DNA of 64,000 nt from Streptomyces scabiei 87.22 (lineage in GTDB: Bacteria > Actinomycetota > Actinomycetes > Streptomycetales > Streptomycetaceae). The translations under genes were made by a program, and so were the position numbers. Shown one piece after another: positions 1 to 9,007 of this stretch. Within the stretch, counting starts at the first letter, position 1, and every line of letters begins with the position of its first letter. The stretch is from contig NC_013929.1 of NCBI RefSeq assembly GCF_000091305.1, forward strand, positions 5,642,001-5,706,000, read 5' to 3'. The notes beneath the pieces were generated by a model. That model was given only the letters and a program-made list of their open reading frames with translations. It had not been told where the DNA came from and searched no databases.

Positions 1-1347
1 GACGAGCACGGCGTCGGCGGCGGACCACCTGGCCGCCTTCACGCTCCGCGCCGGCTTCGCCCACAGGATCGTCTTCTGCTCGTCGCCCGTGAGGATCCCG
101 TCCGCGTGCGCGGCGAGGAAGTCCGCGTCGGAGAGCAGTCGCAGGACGAGTCTGGCGGGATCGACGGGCGGCCACATCGCCTTGACCGCCGCCTTCACGG
201 CGGTGTTGCGGGCCACCGCGTCCTGTACCCGGTCGTCGGGCGCCTCCCCGGACCGCTCCATCTGCACCAGCACGGCGTGCGCGATCCGCTGCGGCAGGGC
301 CTCGCGGGCGGCCCCGTAGCGGATGTCCCGCTCCAGCAACTCCCGCACGATGTCCTCCAGTTCGTACGCCGGTACGCGCCAGCGACGGGAACCCCGGACG
401 ACCATCACGGGCTCGGCGGGCAGGGTGACGTGCGAGCGGACGGCCCGGCGGAGCACCTCGGCCATGCGGGCGTCGCCCTTGACGACGGCGGCGGGTGCCT
501 CGTCCGTGCCCCGCACCTCGACGTGGGAGACGAGGTCGTCGACGGTGGCCTGCTTGACCTCCAGCTCGCCCAGCGCGGGCAGGACCTGCTCGATGTAGTG
601 CAGGAAGGAGCGGTTCGGCCCGATGACGAGGGTGCCGGTGCGGGCGAGGCGCTCGCGGTGGGCGTAGAGGAGGTAGGCGACGCGGTGCAGGCCGACGGCG
701 GTCTTTCCGGTGCCGGGGCCGCCCTGGACGCAGAGGGAGCCGGCGAGGTCGGACCGGACGATCTCGTCCTGCTCCGGCTGGATGGTCGCCACGATGTCCC
801 GCATCGGACCGACGCGCGGCCGCTCGATCTCCTGCTGCAGCAGTTTGCTGGTGGTGGCCGCCTCGGCGGGGTCGGAGAGGTGCTCGTCCTCGTAGGCGGT
901 GAGGTCGCCGCCGGTGTACCCGAAACGCCGCCGCAGGCCGACGTCCAGCGGATCGGTCCTGGAGGCCCGGTAGAACGGCTGCGAGACGGGGGCGCGCCAG
1001 TCGATCACCATCGGGTCGCCGTCCGCGTCGTGCACATGACGGCGCCCGATGTAGAACCGCTCCCCGGCCGCGCCCTCGGCCCGGTCGGCGCCGGGGGCGT
1101 GCAGGTAGTCGAGACGGCCGAAGAAGAGCGGGGTGTGGCTCAGGTCGGCCAGCGACTTGATCCGCTCCGCGATCTGGCGGGCCAGCACCTCCGCGTTCAC
1201 CCAGTTCGCGGTGACGTCCTTGATGTCCAGCGCCTCCGCGTCCTCCCGCATGGCGCGCAGTGCGGAACGGGACGCGGCGAGGTGCGAGCGCTCTCGGGAG
1301 AGGGGGTCGGCCGGGTGGGTCGGGTCGGCGGTGGGGTGCGCGGACAA
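1..1347 (-). CDS. HelD/HelR-like RNA polymerase-remodelling UvrD-type ATPase (C-terminus outside window)
   Basis: The gene runs off the left edge, so only about 449 N-terminal residues are visible; the family is usually 650-800 residues. I read the start as TTG at 1347, with GGAGG about nine bases upstream. A Walker A motif, GGPGTGKT, lies near residue 207 and is followed by AVGLHRVAYLLY, typical of HelD-family superfamily 1 ATPases. The N-terminal region is long and charged, which in the family forms the arm that enters the RNA polymerase secondary channel. Known members release stalled RNA polymerase from DNA, and the actinobacterial HelR branch can displace rifamycins. I did not see the rifamycin-associated promoter element upstream, so HelR rather than plain HelD is an inference. 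An ordinary UvrD-like DNA helicase is less likely given the N-terminus. Confidence 0.82.
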   Translation of the reverse strand, partial: MSAHPTADPTHPADPLSRERSHLAASRSALRAMREDAEALDIKDVTANWVNAEVLARQIAERIKSLADLSHTPLFFGRLDYLHAPGADRAEGAAGERFYIGRRHVHDADGDPMVIDWRAPVSQPFYRASRTDPLDVGLRRRFGYTGGDLTAYEDEHLSDPAEAATTSKLLQQEIERPRVGPMRDIVATIQPEQDEIVRSDLAGSLCVQGGPGTGKTAVGLHRVAYLLYAHRERLARTGTLVIGPNRSFLHYIEQVLPALGELEVKQATVDDLVSHVEVRGTDEAPAAVVKGDARMAEVLRRAVRSHVTLPAEPVMVVRGSRRWRVPAYELEDIVRELLERDIRYGAAREALPQRIAHAVLVQMERSGEAPDDRVQDAVARNTAVKAAVKAMWPPVDPARLVLRLLSDADFLAAHADGILTGDEQKTILWAKPARSVKAARWSAADAVLV

Positions 1348-1390
1348 GGGGGTGCCTCCGGGGGCCTACGGGACCTAGGGGTGCCGCCCG

Positions 1391-1450
1391 CACGGCGTGC
1401 CTGACGGCGGTGTGCGTGAGGGCGGTGTGCCTGAGGGCGGTGTTCTGCCT
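1391..1450. repeat. 15-bp tandem repeat, four copies, upstream of the HelD-like gene
   Basis: Four head-to-tail copies of a 15-bp unit (best copy GGCGGTGTGCCTGAG, 1421-1435) lie just upstream of the helicase start. The outer copies are diverged. They sit in the likely 5' leader or promoter of the minus-strand gene. The rest of the 343-base gap between 1347 and 1691 holds no gene that I can support. Confidence 0.6.
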
Positions 1451-1690
1451 GTGGCGGTGGCCGACCGGTTTCCGTCCGGGCGACGGCGCTCCACGGAAGG
1501 GAGGCGGGCAAGAGCGGAGAGTGTAGGTGAGGGAGGGGGGCCAGGGCCAACGCGTTTCCCGGCGGTACCCCTAGGGGGTGAGTACGTCGCGGGTACGAGG
1601 GGCGGCCCAGACCTGAGAGTGAGCCGGGGACTCAGCGGGTTCACTCCGCAGACCGACGCGATCCACAGGCGGACGTTCCACCATGGAGAC

Positions 1691-1888
1691 ATGAGTGCAG
1701 CGACGTTCATCCCCGCCTCGGCCTCCGGCCGACCCGGTCCGCCGTCCGGCGCGACCGGCCTCGACGACCACCACAACCGTCACCGCCTCGCCGACGCCCT
1801 GCGCGCCGTCAAGGTCTTCGCGAGCGCCGCCTTCGGCGTGATCGTGCTCGGTGAGTACGCGGAGGAGGCGGGCATACGCCGCCGGTGA
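1691..1888 (+). CDS. Small conserved Streptomyces protein, 65 aa, function unknown
   Basis: A 65-residue ORF starts at ATG 1691, five bases after a GGAG. The first half is low-complexity (Ser, Ala, Pro, Gly). The second half, from HRLADALRAVKVFASAAF onward, is an amphipathic to hydrophobic segment ending in a charged tail. The pattern is that of a short membrane-associated or protein-binding peptide. Codon bias fits its neighbours, and it stands alone between divergent helicase genes. From memory, similar small proteins occur in other streptomycetes, but no function is known to me. No cofactor motif or signal peptide is visible. Confidence 0.6.
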   Translation: MSAATFIPASASGRPGPPSGATGLDDHHNRHRLADALRAVKVFASAAFGVIVLGEYAEEAGIRRR

Positions 1889-2053
1889 GGCCCGGCCTCA
1901 CCCCGCGTACCCCGCCCGTCCCGCCGCGCCCCGCGCCCGGCACGGGGCGATCGCTCCTGCCTGTGCCGCCCGACGACCCCGGCTCCCGCTGCCCGCACTC
2001 AAGGCGGCCCGGTCCTCGGCGCCCCGGCAGCAGCGGCCGCCCCGTCCGCGCCC

Positions 2054-3694
2054 TCAGCCCTCCGTCAGCAGCTCGTCCGCGTCCATGATCCGGTAGGCGT
2101 ACCCCTGCTCGGCGAGGAACCGCTGCCGGTGGGCGGCGAAATCCTGGTCGATGGTGTCCCGGGCGACCACCGAGTAGAAGTGCGCCTGGTGGCCGTCGGC
2201 CTTGGGGCGCAGGACGCGGCCGAGACGCTGGGCCTCCTCCTGGCGGGAGCCGAAGGTGCCGGAGACCTGGATGGCCACCGTGGCCTCCGGGAGGTCGATG
2301 GAGAAGTTCGCGACCTTCGACACCACCAGTACGTTGATCTCGCCCTGCCGGAACGCGTCGAACAGCTTCTCGCGCTGGGCGTTGCTGGTCTCGCCCTTGA
2401 TCACCGGCGCGTCCAGATGGGCGCCCAGCTCGTCGAGCTGGTCGATGTACTGGCCGATGACGAGGATCTGCTGCCCCGCGAAGCGGCGGACGATCGCCTC
2501 GGCCACCTTCCGCTTCGTCGCGGTCGTGGAGCAGAAGCGGTACTTCTCCTCCTGCTCGGCGGTGGCGTAGGCGAGCCGCTCGGAGTCGGTCAGGTTCACC
2601 CGGACCTCGACGCAGTCGGCGGGCGCGATGTAGCCCTGCGCCTCGATCTCCTTCCAGGGGGCGTCGAACCGCTTGGGCCCGATGAGGGAGAACACGTCGG
2701 ACTCCCGCCCGTCCTCCCGGACGAGCGTCGCCGTCAGCCCGAGCCGCCGGCGTGCCTGCAGATCGGCGGTGAACTTGAAGACCGGAGCGGGAAGGAGATG
2801 CACCTCGTCGTAGACGACGAGCCCCCAGTCACGGGAGTCGAACAGCTCCAGGTGCGGGTAGACGCCCTTCCGGCGGGTCGTCAGCACCTGGTAGGTGGCG
2901 ATGGTGACCGGCCGGATCTCCTTGCGCGTCCCGCTGTACTCGCCGATCTCCTCCTCGGTCAGCGACGTCCGCTTGATCAGCTCGTGCTTCCACTGCCGCG
3001 CGGAGACGGTGTTGGTGACGAGGATGAGGGTGGTCGACTTGGCCTGCGCCATGGCCCCGGCTCCGACCAGCGTCTTCCCGGCGCCGCAGGGCAGGACGAC
3101 GACGCCGCTGCCGCCGTGCCAGAAGTTCTCCACGGCCTGCTTCTGGTAGGGGCGCAGCGCCCAGCCGTCCTCGGCCAGCTCGATCGGGTGGGCCTCGCCG
3201 TCCACGTAGCCGGCGAGGTCCTCGGCGGGCCAGCCCAGCTTCAGCAGGGTCTGCTTGACCTGCCCGCGCTCGGAGGGGTGCACGGCGACGGTGTCCGGGT
3301 CGATCCGGGCGCCGACGAGCGGAGTGATCCGCTTCGACCGCAGGATCTCCTCCAGCACGGGACGGTCGGTGGTGGTGAGGACGAGACCGTGCACCGGGTG
3401 CTTGGAGAGGGTGAGGCGGCCGTAGCGGTCCATGGTCTCGGCGACGTCCACGAGGAGCGCGTGCGGCACCGGGTAGCGGCTGTACTGCACCAGCGCGTCG
3501 ACGACCTGCTCGGCGTCGTGCCCGGCGGCCCGCGCGTTCCACAGGCCGAGCGGGGTCACCCGGTAGGTGTGGATGTGCTCGGGCGCCCGCTCAAGCTCGG
3601 CGAACGGCGCGATGGCCCGGCGGCACGCGTCCGCCTGCTCGTGGTCGACCTCCAGGAGCAGCGTCTTGTCGGACTGGACGATCAAGCAGGACAC
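2054..3694 (-). CDS. Bacterial XPB/ERCC3-type DNA repair helicase
   Basis: This 546-residue superfamily 2 helicase matches bacterial XPB. The Walker A region reads PCGAGKTLVG, motif II is the DEVH box (YDEVHLLP), an RED motif (REDGRE) follows, and motif VI is QRLGRVLRP. The N-terminal 180 residues form the damage-recognition-like domain of XPB. The frame is open further upstream, but I chose GTG at 3694 because GGAGG lies five bases before it and family members begin with the LIVQSDKTLLLEVDH block. XPB unwinds DNA 3'-5' and acts in nucleotide excision repair in archaea and eukaryotes; its role in actinobacteria is less settled. A Helicase_C_3 gene, a frequent partner, lies on the same strand 2.7 kb upstream. 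Confidence 0.93.
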   Translation of the reverse strand: MSCLIVQSDKTLLLEVDHEQADACRRAIAPFAELERAPEHIHTYRVTPLGLWNARAAGHDAEQVVDALVQYSRYPVPHALLVDVAETMDRYGRLTLSKHPVHGLVLTTTDRPVLEEILRSKRITPLVGARIDPDTVAVHPSERGQVKQTLLKLGWPAEDLAGYVDGEAHPIELAEDGWALRPYQKQAVENFWHGGSGVVVLPCGAGKTLVGAGAMAQAKSTTLILVTNTVSARQWKHELIKRTSLTEEEIGEYSGTRKEIRPVTIATYQVLTTRRKGVYPHLELFDSRDWGLVVYDEVHLLPAPVFKFTADLQARRRLGLTATLVREDGRESDVFSLIGPKRFDAPWKEIEAQGYIAPADCVEVRVNLTDSERLAYATAEQEEKYRFCSTTATKRKVAEAIVRRFAGQQILVIGQYIDQLDELGAHLDAPVIKGETSNAQREKLFDAFRQGEINVLVVSKVANFSIDLPEATVAIQVSGTFGSRQEEAQRLGRVLRPKADGHQAHFYSVVARDTIDQDFAAHRQRFLAEQGYAYRIMDADELLTEG

Positions 3695-3721
3695 ACATAC
3701 CTCCGGAGATAAGGTCGTCTC

Positions 3722-4009
3722 ATGACAGAAGCAACACCTGTCACCGCACGGGCTATGCCCCGCGCCCGACGCCGGAAGGGCGTCCCGGCCGGCGCGCCGG
3801 GGATGCGCGCCGCTCTCCATGTTCGCCTATCGCGCGAAACCGGCGAGACGACTTCGCCGGAATCCCGGCGCGCGGCGCGCGAAGCGTGGCGCACGACACG
3901 CGGCACGGTCGCCGCGAGGGAGGCGGACCCGCCGTCCGCCCGCACGCGACCGTGCCGGTCGCGGACACCGACGAGCGGCCGTGACCGGTACGGGCCTGAC
4001 GCGTCCTAG
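3722..4009 (+). CDS. Possible small Arg-rich ORF, 95 aa (doubtful)
   Basis: This is the only candidate in the 311-base gap between the XPB and PPOX genes. It starts at ATG 3722, seven bases after AAGG, and ends four bases into the 3' end of the convergent PPOX gene. The product is very rich in Arg, Ala, Thr and Pro, with no domain, signal peptide or motif that I recognise. The composition is also what random high-GC sequence gives, so it may not be translated. I list it only because the gap otherwise holds nothing. Confidence 0.18.
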   Translation: MTEATPVTARAMPRARRRKGVPAGAPGMRAALHVRLSRETGETTSPESRRAAREAWRTTRGTVAAREADPPSARTRPCRSRTPTSGRDRYGPDAS

Positions 4010-4464
4010 CCGTTGATGTCGAGTGCCGTGCCGTAGAGCCGGTCCACCTTCAGCCGGATGACCAGCCGGCGCTCGGCCACCAGCTGCTCCAGAAAAGCGT
4101 CCTCGTTCTCGGGCTTCGCAGCCTGCGGGACCATGCCGAGCAGTTCCCGGCCCACCGCGTCGCCCGGAGCCGTCGTGATCTCGGAGACCTCGGCCTCGCC
4201 CTCGGCCACGGCCAACGACCACACGTCGCCGCCCTGCACATGCAGTGAGGCACGCGGGTCGCGCCGAAGGTGCCCGACCTTGACGCGGTCGGCCGTCGTG
4301 GAGAACCGCACGATGCGGGCCTCGGAGTCCCAGCTGTACAGCATGGTGGTCTGGTGGGGATGGCCGCTGCGCTTGACGGTGGCGAGCGTGCCGAACTGCT
4401 GCGTGCCGAGCAGGGCGGAGAGGGCTTCGTCGGACAGGGGGCGAGGCGAAGGTCCTTGAGTCAT
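4006..4464 (-). CDS. PPOX-class split-barrel flavin/F420-dependent oxidoreductase family protein
   Basis: The 152-residue product has the split beta-barrel fold of the pyridoxamine 5'-phosphate oxidase superfamily. The N-terminal LLGTQQFGTLATVKRSGHP stretch and the central FSTTADRVKVGHLRRDPRASL stretch (the phosphate-binding strand region) are characteristic of the small F420- or FMN-dependent enzymes common in actinobacteria. I used ATG 4464 because the protein then begins just before the fold; the open frame upstream is not conserved-looking. The enzyme is probably cytoplasmic and dimeric and reduces a small substrate, but neither substrate nor cofactor can be read from the sequence. It is divergent from the UPF0114-IstB fusion gene across an AT-richer 112-bp promoter region. 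Confidence 0.82.
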   Translation of the reverse strand: MTQGPSPRPLSDEALSALLGTQQFGTLATVKRSGHPHQTTMLYSWDSEARIVRFSTTADRVKVGHLRRDPRASLHVQGGDVWSLAVAEGEAEVSEITTAPGDAVGRELLGMVPQAAKPENEDAFLEQLVAERRLVIRLKVDRLYGTALDING

Positions 4465-4576
4465 GACGTGATCAACATCCGCGGCCGTCCCGTCATTTCC
4501 CGATCCCGATCTTATGAGATGTCTATTCATTCCGATGAGTGGCTGGAATTCAGATTTGCCGCATTGATTCCGAAGA

Positions 4577-6022
4577 ATGTGCACCGTGCAGCCAACCACC
4601 CCGGCAGACCCGGTCACCCCGTCCGTCTCTCCGCAGGGCACCACGCTCGGCTACGCCCTGTTCGCCACCCGCTGGCTCCAGGCACCCCTGTACTTCGGCC
4701 TCGTCGCGGCCCAGGGGGTTTACGTCTACAAGTTCTTCAACGAGCTGTGGACGTTAATCGTCAGGTGCGTGGGCGGCAGCGCCACCGAGACCTACGTGAT
4801 GCTCGCCGTGCTCAAACTGGTCGACGTCGTCATGATCGCCAACCTCCTGATCATGACGATCGTCGGCGGCTACGAGACCTTCGTCTCCCGCATCGGCCTC
4901 CAGGGCCACCGTGACCAGCCGGAATGGCTCTCGCACGTCAACTCCAACGTGCTGAAGGTCAAGCTCGCCACCGCCATCGTGGGCATCTCCTCCGTCCACC
5001 TCCTCCAGATGTTCGTGGACGTCCACCACACCTCGCACCACGCCCTGCTCTGGGGCACGGTGATCCACATGGCCTTCATCGCCTCCGCGGTGCTCCTGGC
5101 GTACATGTCGGGGCCGATGCTCCGCGACGACAAGGCCCACGGCTGCTCCCACCCCGGCCCGTCCGGCACCGCGAAGCCGTTCGTGCCGGGCCCGCGGGTG
5201 CCGGCGGAGCCCACGGAGTTCCGGGACGAGACCGGCGAGTCCACGCCATCGGCGGGACCGGAGCTGCCGAAGGGCCCGGCCGCCTCCGCCCTCCGCCGGG
5301 GAACCCTGCCGATCCCGGCCCAGGCAGCCTCGTACGAGAACCACCTGACCGACGACGGCCGGGTCTCCGCCCCCGGGACCCGGTTCACCCGGGGCGGGGC
5401 CCGCATCGTGCCGTACGAGGCCCGGCCCACGCCGTCCCTGGCCGAGAGCGGGGTCGAGGGGCGGGTGCGGGCGGCCGGCTTCCCGGCGCGCAAGCTGCTG
5501 GAGGACTTCGACACGGGCCACCCGTCCTCCTTCGACCGCCGGGTGCTGACCCGGCTCGGGACGCTGGACTTCATGGCCGCCGGACGGAACGTGGTGTTCG
5601 TCGGCGCCCCCGGCACCGGCAAGACGCACCTGGCGATCGGGCTCGGCGTACGCGCCTGCCAGGCCGGGCACCGGGTGCTGTTCGCGACCGCCACCGAGTG
5701 GGCCGCACGGCTGGCCGGGGCACGGGCCGAGGGCAGGCTCGCGGAGGAACTGACCGCGCTCGACGCCTGCCCCCTGCTGATCGTCGACGAGGTCGGCTAC
5801 CTTCCCTTCGACACGGACACCGCCCGACTGGTCTTCCAGCTGATCGCGCACCGCTACGAGCGCGCCTCGCTCGTCGTGACCAGCGACCGGCCGCTCGGCC
5901 GCTGGGACGAGATCCTCGGCGGGGCCGCCCCCGCGGTCGTCGACCGCCTCGCGCACCACGCCGAGATCGTCCGCCTCGAAGGGGACAGCTACCGGGTCGG
6001 CCGCGCTACTTCAGCAGGCTGA
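4577..6022 (+). CDS. Fusion protein: UPF0114/YqhA-like membrane domain plus IstB/DnaC-like AAA+ ATPase domain
   Basis: One uninterrupted 481-residue frame joins two unrelated modules. Residues 25-185 look like a UPF0114 (YqhA) integral membrane protein with about four hydrophobic segments, including LYFGLVAAQGVYVYKFF and LVDVVMIANLLIMTIVGGYE. Residues 186-295 are a polar linker rich in Pro, Gly and Arg. Residues 296-475 match IstB, the ATPase helper of IS21 elements: RVRAAGFPARKLLEDFD, Walker A GAPGTGKT (343-350), Walker B LLIVDE (400-405), VVTSDRP, and DRLAHHAEIVRLEGDSYR. Both halves look intact. No istA transposase or IS ends lie nearby, so this is not a working IS. The ribosome site before ATG 4577 is weak, and GTG 4586 is an alternative. 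An ATPase held at the membrane is my inference. Confidence 0.8.
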   Translation: MCTVQPTTPADPVTPSVSPQGTTLGYALFATRWLQAPLYFGLVAAQGVYVYKFFNELWTLIVRCVGGSATETYVMLAVLKLVDVVMIANLLIMTIVGGYETFVSRIGLQGHRDQPEWLSHVNSNVLKVKLATAIVGISSVHLLQMFVDVHHTSHHALLWGTVIHMAFIASAVLLAYMSGPMLRDDKAHGCSHPGPSGTAKPFVPGPRVPAEPTEFRDETGESTPSAGPELPKGPAASALRRGTLPIPAQAASYENHLTDDGRVSAPGTRFTRGGARIVPYEARPTPSLAESGVEGRVRAAGFPARKLLEDFDTGHPSSFDRRVLTRLGTLDFMAAGRNVVFVGAPGTGKTHLAIGLGVRACQAGHRVLFATATEWAARLAGARAEGRLAEELTALDACPLLIVDEVGYLPFDTDTARLVFQLIAHRYERASLVVTSDRPLGRWDEILGGAAPAVVDRLAHHAEIVRLEGDSYRVGRATSAG

Positions 6023-6191
6023 CGTTCTGGATCAGGGGCCCCTCCACACCGATGCCCTCGCCCACCAGGGTGCCGAGTTCGGGGAGGGGCAGGGGCGGGT
6101 TGGCCGCCGCCGGGGAGCCGAGCACACCCACCAGGGCGACGGCGGCCAGGGCGGCGGCCAGGGCGGAGACGAGCGTGGCGAGGGGGCGCAT
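6006..6191 (-). CDS. Small secreted peptide precursor, 61 aa
   Basis: Starting at ATG 6191, the product has a clean signal peptide: MRPLAT, then a hydrophobic core of Ala, Leu and Val, ending SPAAA before NPPLPLPELG. A mature peptide of about 31 residues would remain, with no cysteines and with PELGTLVGEGIGVEGPL as its distinctive part. The gene converges with the fusion gene and overlaps its last 17 bases. The ribosome site (GAAAGG) is rather far, at about 13 bases. From memory, comparable peptides with GTLVG-GIGVEGPL occur in other streptomycetes. Role unknown. Confidence 0.6.
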   Translation of the reverse strand: MRPLATLVSALAAALAAVALVGVLGSPAAANPPLPLPELGTLVGEGIGVEGPLIQNVSLLK

Positions 6192-6409
6192 GCGTACGGG
6201 TGGGCCTTTCGAGCGCAGGGAGTCGATCTCGATCGGACCCAGGGTGGCTGCCCCGCCGCCCGCCCCCCGATGCGCACACCGCCGCCCGACCGCCCGTCCG
6301 GGGGAAATCACCCGGTGGCCTGCATGAACTCCGGCGTACGCCCGTCCGAGTGAGGGGCGGGAAACGGCTTGATCAACACGGTCGGAGGCGGGACGGCTGC
6401 CCCGGCCCC

Positions 6410-9007
6410 TCAGGTCGCGTCGTCCGCCAGCTCCGCGACGCCCGTGATCCGGTGCAGCGGGAACGTCCGCACCTCGTCCGCCGTGTGGTCGTACGCCGTC
6501 ACGAAGCCGCCCTCCACACGGACCGGGGCGATCACACGCTGGCTGGCGGAGCCCTCGGCGTTGACGTAGCCGATCCACAGCGCCTCGCCGGTGAGGACGG
6601 CCGCCTGCATCGTCGCGAGAGTCTCGGCGGAACCCGTGCGGGGCAGAGTGCCGGACGGCTCCTGCTCCCCCGTCGTCCTGCGGGGCGCGGTGGAGGCGAG
6701 GTCACCGGCGCGAATGGCACGGATCGCGGCGCCCAGGAGCGTGTCGTCCGGCGCCGGAGGCCCGTCCGGGACGGGTTCCGGGGCCGTGCGGGGCGGGGTG
6801 CGACGGGCATGGGCCCGGGTGATCAGGACATCCCCCTCCGCCGACTCGGCGGCCGGCGCGTACCCCATCGCCCGCAGCCCGTCGAGCAGCGTCGCCGGGT
6901 CCGCCTGCGCGGCGAGCACCGTCGGCGCCAGCCGCCGCAGCCCGAGCCCCTGCGAGCGCTTGTCGGCGAGGATCTCGCTGAGCGTCGCGTCGTCGTCGCA
7001 GCGCACGTACGCCGACGCCGCGCCGATCCGCAGCTGCCCATGGCGCCGGGCCACGTCGTCGATGAGATACGCGAGCGGCTGCGGGACCGGCGTACGGGAG
7101 TGCGCGGTCAGGAAGTCGTGCAGGTCGGAGGCGCTCCGGCCCGCGTCCAGCGCCCGGCGCACCGACCCCGGCGTGAACCGGTACACCGTCGCGCCACCCT
7201 TCGACTCCACGTCCGCCAGGACACCCAGCGCGTCGGCCAGCGGCCGCTTCAGCGGACCGGGAGCCACCGCCGTCAGGTCCGCCTGCAGCAGCACGTGGTC
7301 CAACGGCTCGGGCAGCAGCGGCGCGAGCAGCCGCCCGGCCCGGGAGGCGGCCACCGCCCGCTCGGCGACCGGGTCGGGGGAGGGCGCCGGAGGGTGCGGC
7401 AGCGGGACGTGATGGGCGGGGAGCCGGTCGCCGGGGGTCTCCGGCAGGTCGGCGGGGGCCGCCTCCTCGTGCGGCAGACCGAGGAGCGCGCGGCCGTGCG
7501 AGGACAGCGCGCCCCGCCCGGTGACCCCGAGCGACTCGGCCTCCGACAGGGTCCACCGGGCGATCCGGGCCCGCAGATCGTCCCCCTGACGGGCCTGCGA
7601 CGCCGACGACGGGGGCTGCTGGCCGCCACGGGTCGGGCGTTCCCAGTGCAGCCGGGCCAGCACGGAGTCAGGAGCGGCCGACGTGCCCTCCGGCAGCCCC
7701 GCCAGCAGCGCGAGGACCCGGTGGCGCACCTCGGGCGCGGCCGAACGGTCCAGACCCGGGCCCAGCGCCGACAACGTCCGGTCCTTGGCGTCCCGCTCGC
7801 CGATCACCCCGGCCGTACGGGTCGCCGACAGCCACGCCGTGGCCAGCCGCGCCCAGCGCTCGGCGGCGGGCGACTCCAGCCACTCGTCGTACGCGGGGGT
7901 CGCGGCGTACCGTTCGTCGGCCTCGCCGTCCGACGCCAACAGCCCCGCCGTATAAGCGAGTTCGACCCAGAACGCGGTGGTCTGCTCCGACAGGTCCAGG
8001 GCCGCGGCGGTGCGTTTCAGGTCCCGCACACTGAGCCCGCCCGCACGCAGGACGCCCGGCCCGCCCTCGTCCCAGTCCTTCAGCAGCTCCTCCACGGTCG
8101 CCAGCGCGGTGTACGCCTGACCGGCCGCCGTCGCGTCCACCACCTGCGGACGGTGCGCGCCCGACGCCTCCACCGGCGGCGGCAGCGGCCGCACCTCCCG
8201 GTGCGCCCGGCCCGCCCGCAGATGCAGAGCCACCTCGCGCGGCAGGACGACCGTGCCGGGGGCGGTGGGCAGCAGCAGACCCCGGTCCAGCAACCAGCGC
8301 AGATGGGCCGCCGGACTGGCCGTGACCTGCCCGTACGGCGGCCCCCACACCAGCCGCGCCAGGACGTCGAGCGACTCCGGGGGCGCGGCGGCGAGGAGCG
8401 CGGCCATGCGGCGGCGGTCCCGGAACAGCCCGGCGAGGGCGGCGACGGCCGACACCGAGTCGTGGGTGCTGGCCAGCCCCGCCTCCGCGACGATCTCCTG
8501 CACCCGCCCCGGCGACATGCCCGCCGTGGCCTCCGCGACGGTCGGGCCGAGACCGGTGGGCGAGGGGTGCTGCGGGGAGGGGGCGAGCAGCTCCCGGGCC
8601 GTGCGCACGAGACGCAGCCGGTCCTCGGGGCCCCACACGAGAGCCTGGTCGCGCAGGGTGCCGAGCGCGTGGGGCAGCGCGGCGGCGACGGCCGGGTCAC
8701 CCTCGTCACCGGCCAGCAGCCCCGCGAGTTCGCCGTACGACGCCGGGTCGGACGCCACGGCCAGGGCCTGCGCGGTCTGCAGGGCGAACCGGTCCAGGCG
8801 CTCCAGGGCCCGTACCACCGAGGCGCGGGTCCCCGCGCGGGTCGCCAGCTGGGTCAGGTCGGTCGGCACGGGCGTGATGAGGTCGGGCCGCGCCCGGAGC
8901 AGCACGGCGAGCGAACGGTCGTCCCGCCCGCGCAGCGCCTCCGCCAGCGAACGGGGGGCTCCACCGGCAGGCGCCGCCTCCGTGGGGGTGTGCTCCTCGG
9001 TGCTCAT
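6410..9007 (-). CDS. Helicase_C_3 (XPB-associated) winged-helix protein with WYL-like C-terminus
   Basis: The 865-residue protein contains the domain known as Helicase_C_3 (roughly residues 480-700, including RFTPGSVRRALDAGRS and the VLLQADLTAVAPGPLKR block), which resembles the N-terminal part of XPB but lacks its motor motifs. The first 450 residues are Ala/Leu-rich helical repeats with winged-helix character. The last 60 (ALWIGYVNAEGSASQRVIAPVRV ... HRITGVAEL, in two parts) look like a WYL-type ligand-sensing fold. Such proteins are often found near XPB in actinobacteria, and XPB is on the same strand here. The start ATG 9007 fits the N-terminus. A role in DNA repair or transcription with XPB is inference; no catalytic motif is seen. 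Confidence 0.82.
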   Translation of the reverse strand: MSTEEHTPTEAAPAGGAPRSLAEALRGRDDRSLAVLLRARPDLITPVPTDLTQLATRAGTRASVVRALERLDRFALQTAQALAVASDPASYGELAGLLAGDEGDPAVAAALPHALGTLRDQALVWGPEDRLRLVRTARELLAPSPQHPSPTGLGPTVAEATAGMSPGRVQEIVAEAGLASTHDSVSAVAALAGLFRDRRRMAALLAAAPPESLDVLARLVWGPPYGQVTASPAAHLRWLLDRGLLLPTAPGTVVLPREVALHLRAGRAHREVRPLPPPVEASGAHRPQVVDATAAGQAYTALATVEELLKDWDEGGPGVLRAGGLSVRDLKRTAAALDLSEQTTAFWVELAYTAGLLASDGEADERYAATPAYDEWLESPAAERWARLATAWLSATRTAGVIGERDAKDRTLSALGPGLDRSAAPEVRHRVLALLAGLPEGTSAAPDSVLARLHWERPTRGGQQPPSSASQARQGDDLRARIARWTLSEAESLGVTGRGALSSHGRALLGLPHEEAAPADLPETPGDRLPAHHVPLPHPPAPSPDPVAERAVAASRAGRLLAPLLPEPLDHVLLQADLTAVAPGPLKRPLADALGVLADVESKGGATVYRFTPGSVRRALDAGRSASDLHDFLTAHSRTPVPQPLAYLIDDVARRHGQLRIGAASAYVRCDDDATLSEILADKRSQGLGLRRLAPTVLAAQADPATLLDGLRAMGYAPAAESAEGDVLITRAHARRTPPRTAPEPVPDGPPAPDDTLLGAAIRAIRAGDLASTAPRRTTGEQEPSGTLPRTGSAETLATMQAAVLTGEALWIGYVNAEGSASQRVIAPVRVEGGFVTAYDHTADEVRTFPLHRITGVAELADDAT

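Follow-up and report, generated by a model that had tools for sequence, protein, structure and literature searches.

What does the ATPase of a transposon do when it is encoded in one frame with a membrane protein? IstB, MuB and TnsC are transposon ATPases that have been studied as DNA-bound target selectors. In the 64,000-nucleotide stretch of Streptomyces scabiei DNA analysed here (the window), an IstB-like AAA+ core lies behind a UPF0114 domain. The locus was examined for whether the join is genuine, where its IstB half came from, and what the product may do.

Architecture of the fusion gene

The frame encodes 481 residues and contains no internal stop. The joining of UPF0114 and IstB within it, first proposed in a sequence-only reading, was borne out by Pfam and NCBIfam matches above their cut-offs. 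The first half matched the Pfam UPF0114 profile over its whole length (positions 1–117 of 117; E 3.9e-35, 121 bits, cut-off 23.1) and the NCBIfam profile TIGR00645 over residues 26–188 (positions 7–167 of 167; 174.3 bits, cut-off 144.4). The second half matched IstB_IS21 (PF01695; positions 50–232 of 238) with E 2.4e-55 and 188.1 bits (cut-off 24.1), and IS21_help_AAA (NCBIfam) with 211.6 bits against a cut-off of 200. Translation may start at GTG 4586 instead of ATG 4577, since three relatives (L007, L016 and L018) share the in-frame GTG, and the ATG is missing from one of them, L007. The features are collected in Table 1.

Table 1. Features of the fusion locus, in window coordinates
Feature	Position	Strand	Remarks
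Conserved upstream DNA element	4509..4585	+	once in genome; no predicted RNA pairs
UPF0114-IstB fusion gene	4577..6022	+	481 aa from ATG 4577; alternative start GTG 4586
UPF0114 domain	4658..5014	+	Pfam, residues 28-146
Variable Ala/Pro/Gly-rich linker, predicted disordered	5123..5455	+	about residues 183-293
IPAQ short motif	5312..5323	+	residues 246-249, in linker
IstB AAA+ core without IstB N-terminal domain	5456..5998	+	residues 294-474
Walker A GAPGTGKT	5603..5626	+	residues 343-350
Walker B LIVDEVGY	5777..5800	+	residues 401-408
Sensor I position, Asp 437	5885..5887	+	Asn in 16/16 IS21 IstB compared
Arginine finger position, Arg 457	5945..5947	+	presumed from similarity to DnaC; 93/93
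Sensor II Arg 473	5993..5995	+	aligned onto Arg237 of IS5376 IstB; 93/93

In a structure predicted from 46 sequences (model 1), the IstB core was confident from residue 321 to residue 470, with block means of 77–98. The pLDDT of the linker was mostly below 50, and four helices were obtained at low confidence. When the UPF0114 domain was modelled alone (model 2), with an alignment of 10 viral-contig relatives and 11 Streptomyces sequences, it gave four long helices (pLDDT 77.7, pTM 0.66). The predicted helices extend to about residue 177, and hydropathy alone marked three segments. The UPF0114 fold had no PDB match at E ≤ 0.001 and nothing credible in the fold search. With the fused core, Foldseek retrieved IstB first (5BQ5, 1.3e-15), then 8Q3W, 8Q4D, DnaA and DnaC. 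Over 27 sequences, the mean identity of the UPF0114 columns is 94%.

The linker varies between 37 and 178 residues across 71 loci, and this variation fits a flexible tether. Of these 71 linkers, 69 contain a PxQ motif, in most cases [VIL]P[AR]Q, with P247 invariant and Q249 nearly so. Composition alone would produce it in about 31% of 60-residue linkers, and its recurrence is owed in part to shared ancestry.

Three papers, in the portions available, bear on the E. coli member YqhA. Overexpression of yqhA led to growth at 6 mM H2O2 (PMC8228696), a W14L change in yqhA arose in inhibitor-tolerant strains (PMC10991953), and an EchoBase note of a putative Cl- domain in YqhA is quoted by PMC3246468.

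Occurrence and genomic setting

UPF0114 was present in 33 of 199 Streptomyces genomes, as one gene per genome, and 30 of these 33 genes are fused to IstB in a single frame. Two others (G032 and G081) are cut by a contig end. The last (G012, L195) stands alone; it shares about 50% identity with the fused UPF0114 and has no IstB match within the 12 kb around it. An IstB half also lies at the start of a contig in G139, which is outside the 33. Another scan, with each species represented by a single genome, gave 112 relatives, of which the best 80 were analysed; all 80 are Streptomyces, and the set overlaps the 199 genomes. Both halves lie in one frame at 74 of these best 80 loci. Three of the remaining loci are at contig ends (L108, L126 and L128), one contains a run of N (L120), and at two (L066 and L077) the frame switches within the linker, so that the halves are in different frames.

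A missed frameshift is ruled out by the identical one-frame architecture of the 74 loci. A conserved stop in the linker of relatives and the loss of the IstB half from close strains had been named beforehand as refuting the fusion: no such stop was found, and the IstB half is retained. The fusion is genuine, long-standing and maintained. The gene is nevertheless dispensable, because UPF0114 occurs in a minority of the Streptomyces genomes (33 of 199) and a decayed remnant is found in another genus.

That remnant came from a family sample in which 7 of 150 genomes matched, six of them Streptomyces. The seventh genome, G606, retains the latter half of UPF0114 together with a linker that contains LPAQ (L235, about 2479–2790), with IstB absent from the 6 kb around. 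It reads as a decayed fusion, and the fusion may therefore once have been present beyond Streptomyces. In a class sample of 394 genomes, UPF0114 was found in 64: six Streptomyces, with frames of 426–484 residues, and 58 others, among which only G263, G232, G210 and G515 had frames longer than 400 residues. No IstB match was present in the stretches taken from these four, and no UPF0114–IstB fusion was found beyond Streptomyces in the class sample. In G515, the 405-residue frame contains two UPF0114 domains in tandem (C103:2431-3351). When UPF0114 alone was used as the query, 107 plasmid and 8 phage records matched, all with less than 60% identity.

Six ORFs near the fusion were scanned; they encode an XPB-type helicase, a PNPOx-like protein, a small unmatched protein, a Helicase_C_3/WYL protein, a HAD protein and a cold-shock protein. 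The XPB-like helicase and the Helicase_C_3/WYL protein flank the fusion in the window (2054–3820 and 6413–9007, minus strand). A small predicted secreted protein of 61 residues without Pfam match is encoded at 6009–6191 on the minus strand, its 3' end overlapping the end of the fusion, and a similar sequence adjoins the fusion in some relatives.

Among the best 80 loci, the XPB-like gene is in the fetched flank of 65 and the Helicase_C_3/WYL gene in that of 64; at least one of the two is found at 67 loci and neither at 13. A helicase-family neighbour accompanies 62 of the 74 full cores, and these form one group in the tree (support 0.748) together with L117, which has no such neighbour. The gap between the matched parts of the two helicase-family genes was also measured in 20 chosen genomes, 18 free of the fusion and two (G044 and G006) with the fusion elsewhere. 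It was 91–829 bases in 13 and 1,165–4,236 in 7, these being upper bounds where the match was partial, and it is 2,593 in the window. From the tree grouping and this spacing, it appears that members of the main group inherited the gene at a single site, and that in the others it was moved or separately acquired. When 23 loci were searched for further neighbours in common, no set exceeded 4 loci, and no neighbour gene common to all locations was found.

A conserved DNA element precedes the gene, no more than 330 bases from where the domain starts, at 76 of the best 80 loci, with 0–9 mismatches in 34 of them; it was not found at L129, L135, L140 and L142. It is kept at 9 of the 13 loci located elsewhere in the genome. 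Considered as an RNA, it gave no Rfam match in window positions 4200–6300 and no consensus pairs, and a sigma-70 type promoter scan of 4380–4700 found nothing. A model of the element (R1) hits this genome once, which disposes of a shared regulon. It matched 5 of 101 family genomes, four strongly and the fifth, G618, weakly (E 0.0016); the fusion is absent from the 5 kb around this weak match. The element is specific to the gene and presumably acts as its dedicated promoter or operator.

Origin and conservation of the AAA+ core

In a tree of 112 distinct AAA+ cores, the 93 fused cores form one clade (local support 0.875), which joins 10 Streptomyces IstB sequences at a node with support 0.997. 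A single capture of the IstB half is indicated, since every fused core falls in this clade beside Streptomyces IS21 IstB. Nine of the ten IstB genes are preceded on the same strand by an ORF of 414–463 residues with a similar start, L184 being the exception. Four of these nine ORFs were scanned; they proved IstA-like and matched Mu-transpos_C_2 and rve. Mu-type transposases are encoded by five ORFs that precede separate IstB genes. A distant IS21-type element is present in genome G000 (5859148–5859852), where a separate IstB (L194) has a Mu-type transposase ORF of 552 residues upstream. Within the genus, the closest IS21 IstB is about 61% identical to the fused core.

The fused cores begin at the point where IS21 IstB reads HGAEGRIRAARFP, so that about 70 N-terminal residues of IS21 IstB are missing. 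The dimerisation domain, formed by the first ~65 residues, is absent: the match to PF01695 starts at position 50 and that to NF038214 at position 46, and the solved IstB aligns to the fusion from chain residue 58. The membrane module occupies the place of the missing domain.

It had been remarked that no istA or IS ends are near, and none was seen. Neither IstA nor another transposase was found among the six ORFs scanned between 2054 and 11995. The 400 bases downstream were compared with four Streptomyces IS21 loci, the IS ends of which are unmapped, and their similarity was about that of shuffled controls. Against 20 IstB loci, also with unmapped IS ends, the upstream element scored 19–24 for shuffled means of 19.3–22.3, exceeding the best of ten shuffles by 1–2 points at L175, L185 and L193. 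An IS21 remnant with its ends is unsupported by these comparisons. Because the N-terminal domain and istA are absent, the protein is not classed as an IS21 IstB.

The Lys of Walker A, the Asp of Walker B, the arginine finger, the sensor II Arg and Arg378 are invariant in the 93 fused cores, the position of the finger being the one that we assume from the likeness to DnaC. The switch Tyr is present in 90 cores and Arg387 in 91. The Walker B Glu is kept in 89 and replaced by Ala in the other four (L029, L030, L129 and L130), a lineage that reads DALG and retains Walker A and the arginine finger. The sensor II and switch residues were located through alignment to Arg237 and Tyr170 of IS5376 IstB, which have these functions according to the available portion of PMC11208146.

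The sequence-only reading had described the motifs as intact. This stands for Walker A and Walker B but not for sensor I, which is nonstandard: Asp in 88 of 93 fused cores, against Asn in all IS21 IstB compared. Position 396 is Asp in all 93 fusions and mostly Gly or Ser in IS21. Basic residues of the IS21 cores are lost at 394 (Arg/Lys to mostly Ala), 397 (Arg to Ala, Glu or Asp), 468 (Lys to Glu or Asp, 88/93), 320 (Lys/Thr to Asp) and 301 (Arg to Gly, 77/93); Arg or Lys is gained at 326, 329, 337, 383, 466 and 476. A gap column follows position 449 in 75 of 93 fused cores. The median net charge of the core is −2 in the fusions versus 0 to +2 in nine IS21 IstB.

Both halves are under purifying selection. 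The median dN/dS was 0.094 for UPF0114 and 0.351 for IstB, about 3.7 times higher, absolute values being rough in view of the high-GC codon bias (Nei–Gojobori, 75 sequences, 2,775 pairs, of which 2,752 were within distance limits). Judging from its residues, the fused core should bind ATP and assemble as the IstB AAA+ core does; a multimer is argued for since the arginine finger acts in trans and is invariant. Given the single IstB origin, retention over many species and purifying selection, it is nearly certain that an IstB ATPase has been domesticated, and the proposal of a transposition ATPase joined to a membrane protein is thereby sustained.

Possible role and comparison with known systems

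The 3' part of a Streptomyces IS21-related istB would have been captured once, behind the gene of a UPF0114 membrane protein, and the resulting fusion would since have been retained as a solitary gene, preceded by an element of its own. The four UPF0114 helices would lie in the membrane; as the number of spans is even, the linker and the AAA+ core would be on the side of the N terminus, presumably in the cytoplasm. There, the core would bind ATP and assemble with its neighbours through the arginine finger. The dimerising, capping and IstA-cleft domain being gone, this assembly would be under new control: the membrane module would nucleate or limit it, and IstA would not be required.

In the available portion of PMC11208146, the first 65 residues of IstB are the dimer interface; the N-terminal region blocks continuous oligomers, touches DNA and, through its basic residues, accounts in part for the ~30-fold tighter binding of duplex by full-length IstB; and the ATPase module on its own does not suffice for interaction with IstA. 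With the part so described missing, we infer that the fusion cannot serve IstA. The likely output would be a nucleotide-dependent clustering or gating of UPF0114 as the client, which ATP hydrolysis would reset. This output is a guess, because we know of no activity for UPF0114.

The lineage lacking the Walker B glutamate, which still keeps the assembly residues, may dispense with the reset; ATPase-deficient IstB supports activity to differing extents and a Walker B mutant retains its oligomeric state, as far as the same source goes (PMC11208146). That the core assembles with ATP beneath the membrane and thereby controls or clusters UPF0114 is given slightly less than an even chance. The fuller reading is put forward as tentative: a target-selection ATPase may have been turned into an ATP-dependent assembly switch that organises UPF0114, having lost the part that grips DNA and docks the transposase, with several basic residues lost or reversed and those for ATP-driven assembly kept, and with hydrolysis-free assembly sufficing in one lineage.

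The locus had also been thought a possible membrane–DNA or membrane–replisome device, in which the IstB core would hold chromosomal or plasmid DNA and UPF0114 would anchor it at the membrane. The core fold is kept, Arg378 and Arg387 lie in the region of a putative initiator-specific motif, some basic residues have been gained, and a helicase-family gene is in the flank of 67 of the best 80 loci. Yet such a tether is not favoured and is considered unlikely, even if the core may still bind DNA. The domain that contributes to the ~30-fold duplex affinity (PMC11208146, available portion) is absent, basic positions 394, 397, 468 and 320 are lost or reversed, the net charge of the core is lower, and no neighbour is universal, neither helicase-family gene being present at 13 of the best 80 loci.

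A sensor in stress or defence is distinctly unlikely as well. The AAA+ core would detect a foreign or damaged molecule and drive UPF0114 to alter the membrane. Defence systems that pair an AAA+ sensor with a membrane effector are known, and the faster-evolving IstB half and the putative Cl- domain of YqhA would agree with it. Most copies, however, occupy one shared site and not varied islands, and the UPF0114 columns are highly conserved. The best PADLOC match, DISARM DrmD, is unspecific, as it gave 134.6 bits with the fusion and 180.1 with an ordinary IS21 IstB, so that the annotation as DrmD was rejected.

Interference with IS21, by co-assembly of the core with a resident IS21 IstB that would be sequestered at the membrane and kept from transposition, could draw on the ~61% identity to the nearest IstB of the genus and on the intact assembly residues. 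It is very unlikely, since a separate IstB of at least 53% identity was found in at least 2 of 33 genomes with the fusion and at least 12 of 166 others (Fisher p = 1.0; 8 candidates scored per genome, among the matches listed), and no depletion of IS21 IstB was seen in fusion genomes among these matches. A role as a helicase loader at the membrane, comparable to DnaC or DnaI, is most improbable. The sensor I Asp with TSDRP is, we assume, DnaA-like, and the matches that rank directly below IstB are DnaA and DnaC. Profile searches, however, found no helicase-binding N-terminal domain of the loader type, and most Streptomyces examined lack the gene, which therefore has no essential role in replication. 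A recent read-through or an error of assembly, the IstB tail having no function, has a probability close to nil and is already refuted: two of the best 80 loci change frame in the linker, against which stand the retention of the fusion at 74 of them and in 30 of 33 genes, the near-invariant catalytic residues and a dN/dS well below 1.

Literature searches, judged from titles and abstract openings, returned no prior account of a UPF0114–IstB fusion. The joined protein resembles a domesticated component that has taken on new work, and not the product of a sequencing error. If so, a long-kept, transposase-free IstB fused to a membrane protein would be a transposition machine redirected to membrane work. 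It would also offer a way into the widespread membrane family UPF0114/YqhA, through a fused ATPase that can be inactivated by changing single residues.

Among known systems, IS21 IstB (PF01695, NF038214; IS5376 structures 5BQ5, 8Q3W and 8Q4D) is 40–42% identical to the AAA+ core by Foldseek, and the fusion retains its Walker A and B motifs, arginine finger, sensor II and, in 90 of 93 cores, switch Tyr. The fusion differs by the absent N-terminal dimerisation domain, the change of sensor I from Asn to Asp, the gap after 449 (75/93), the basic losses and the membrane-protein partner, with neither istA nor IS ends seen. The helicase loaders DnaC and DnaI, and DnaA, share a similar AAA+ fold at about 15–24% identity (Foldseek), but the fusion carries a membrane module in front instead of their helicase- or origin-binding domains. 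With UPF0114/TIGR00645, represented by E. coli YqhA, the fusion shares the whole domain, above both curated cut-offs, and 25 stand-alone actinobacterial members aligned to it are 36–66% identical. Unlike in these proteins, the domain is followed in the fusion by a linker and an AAA+ core.
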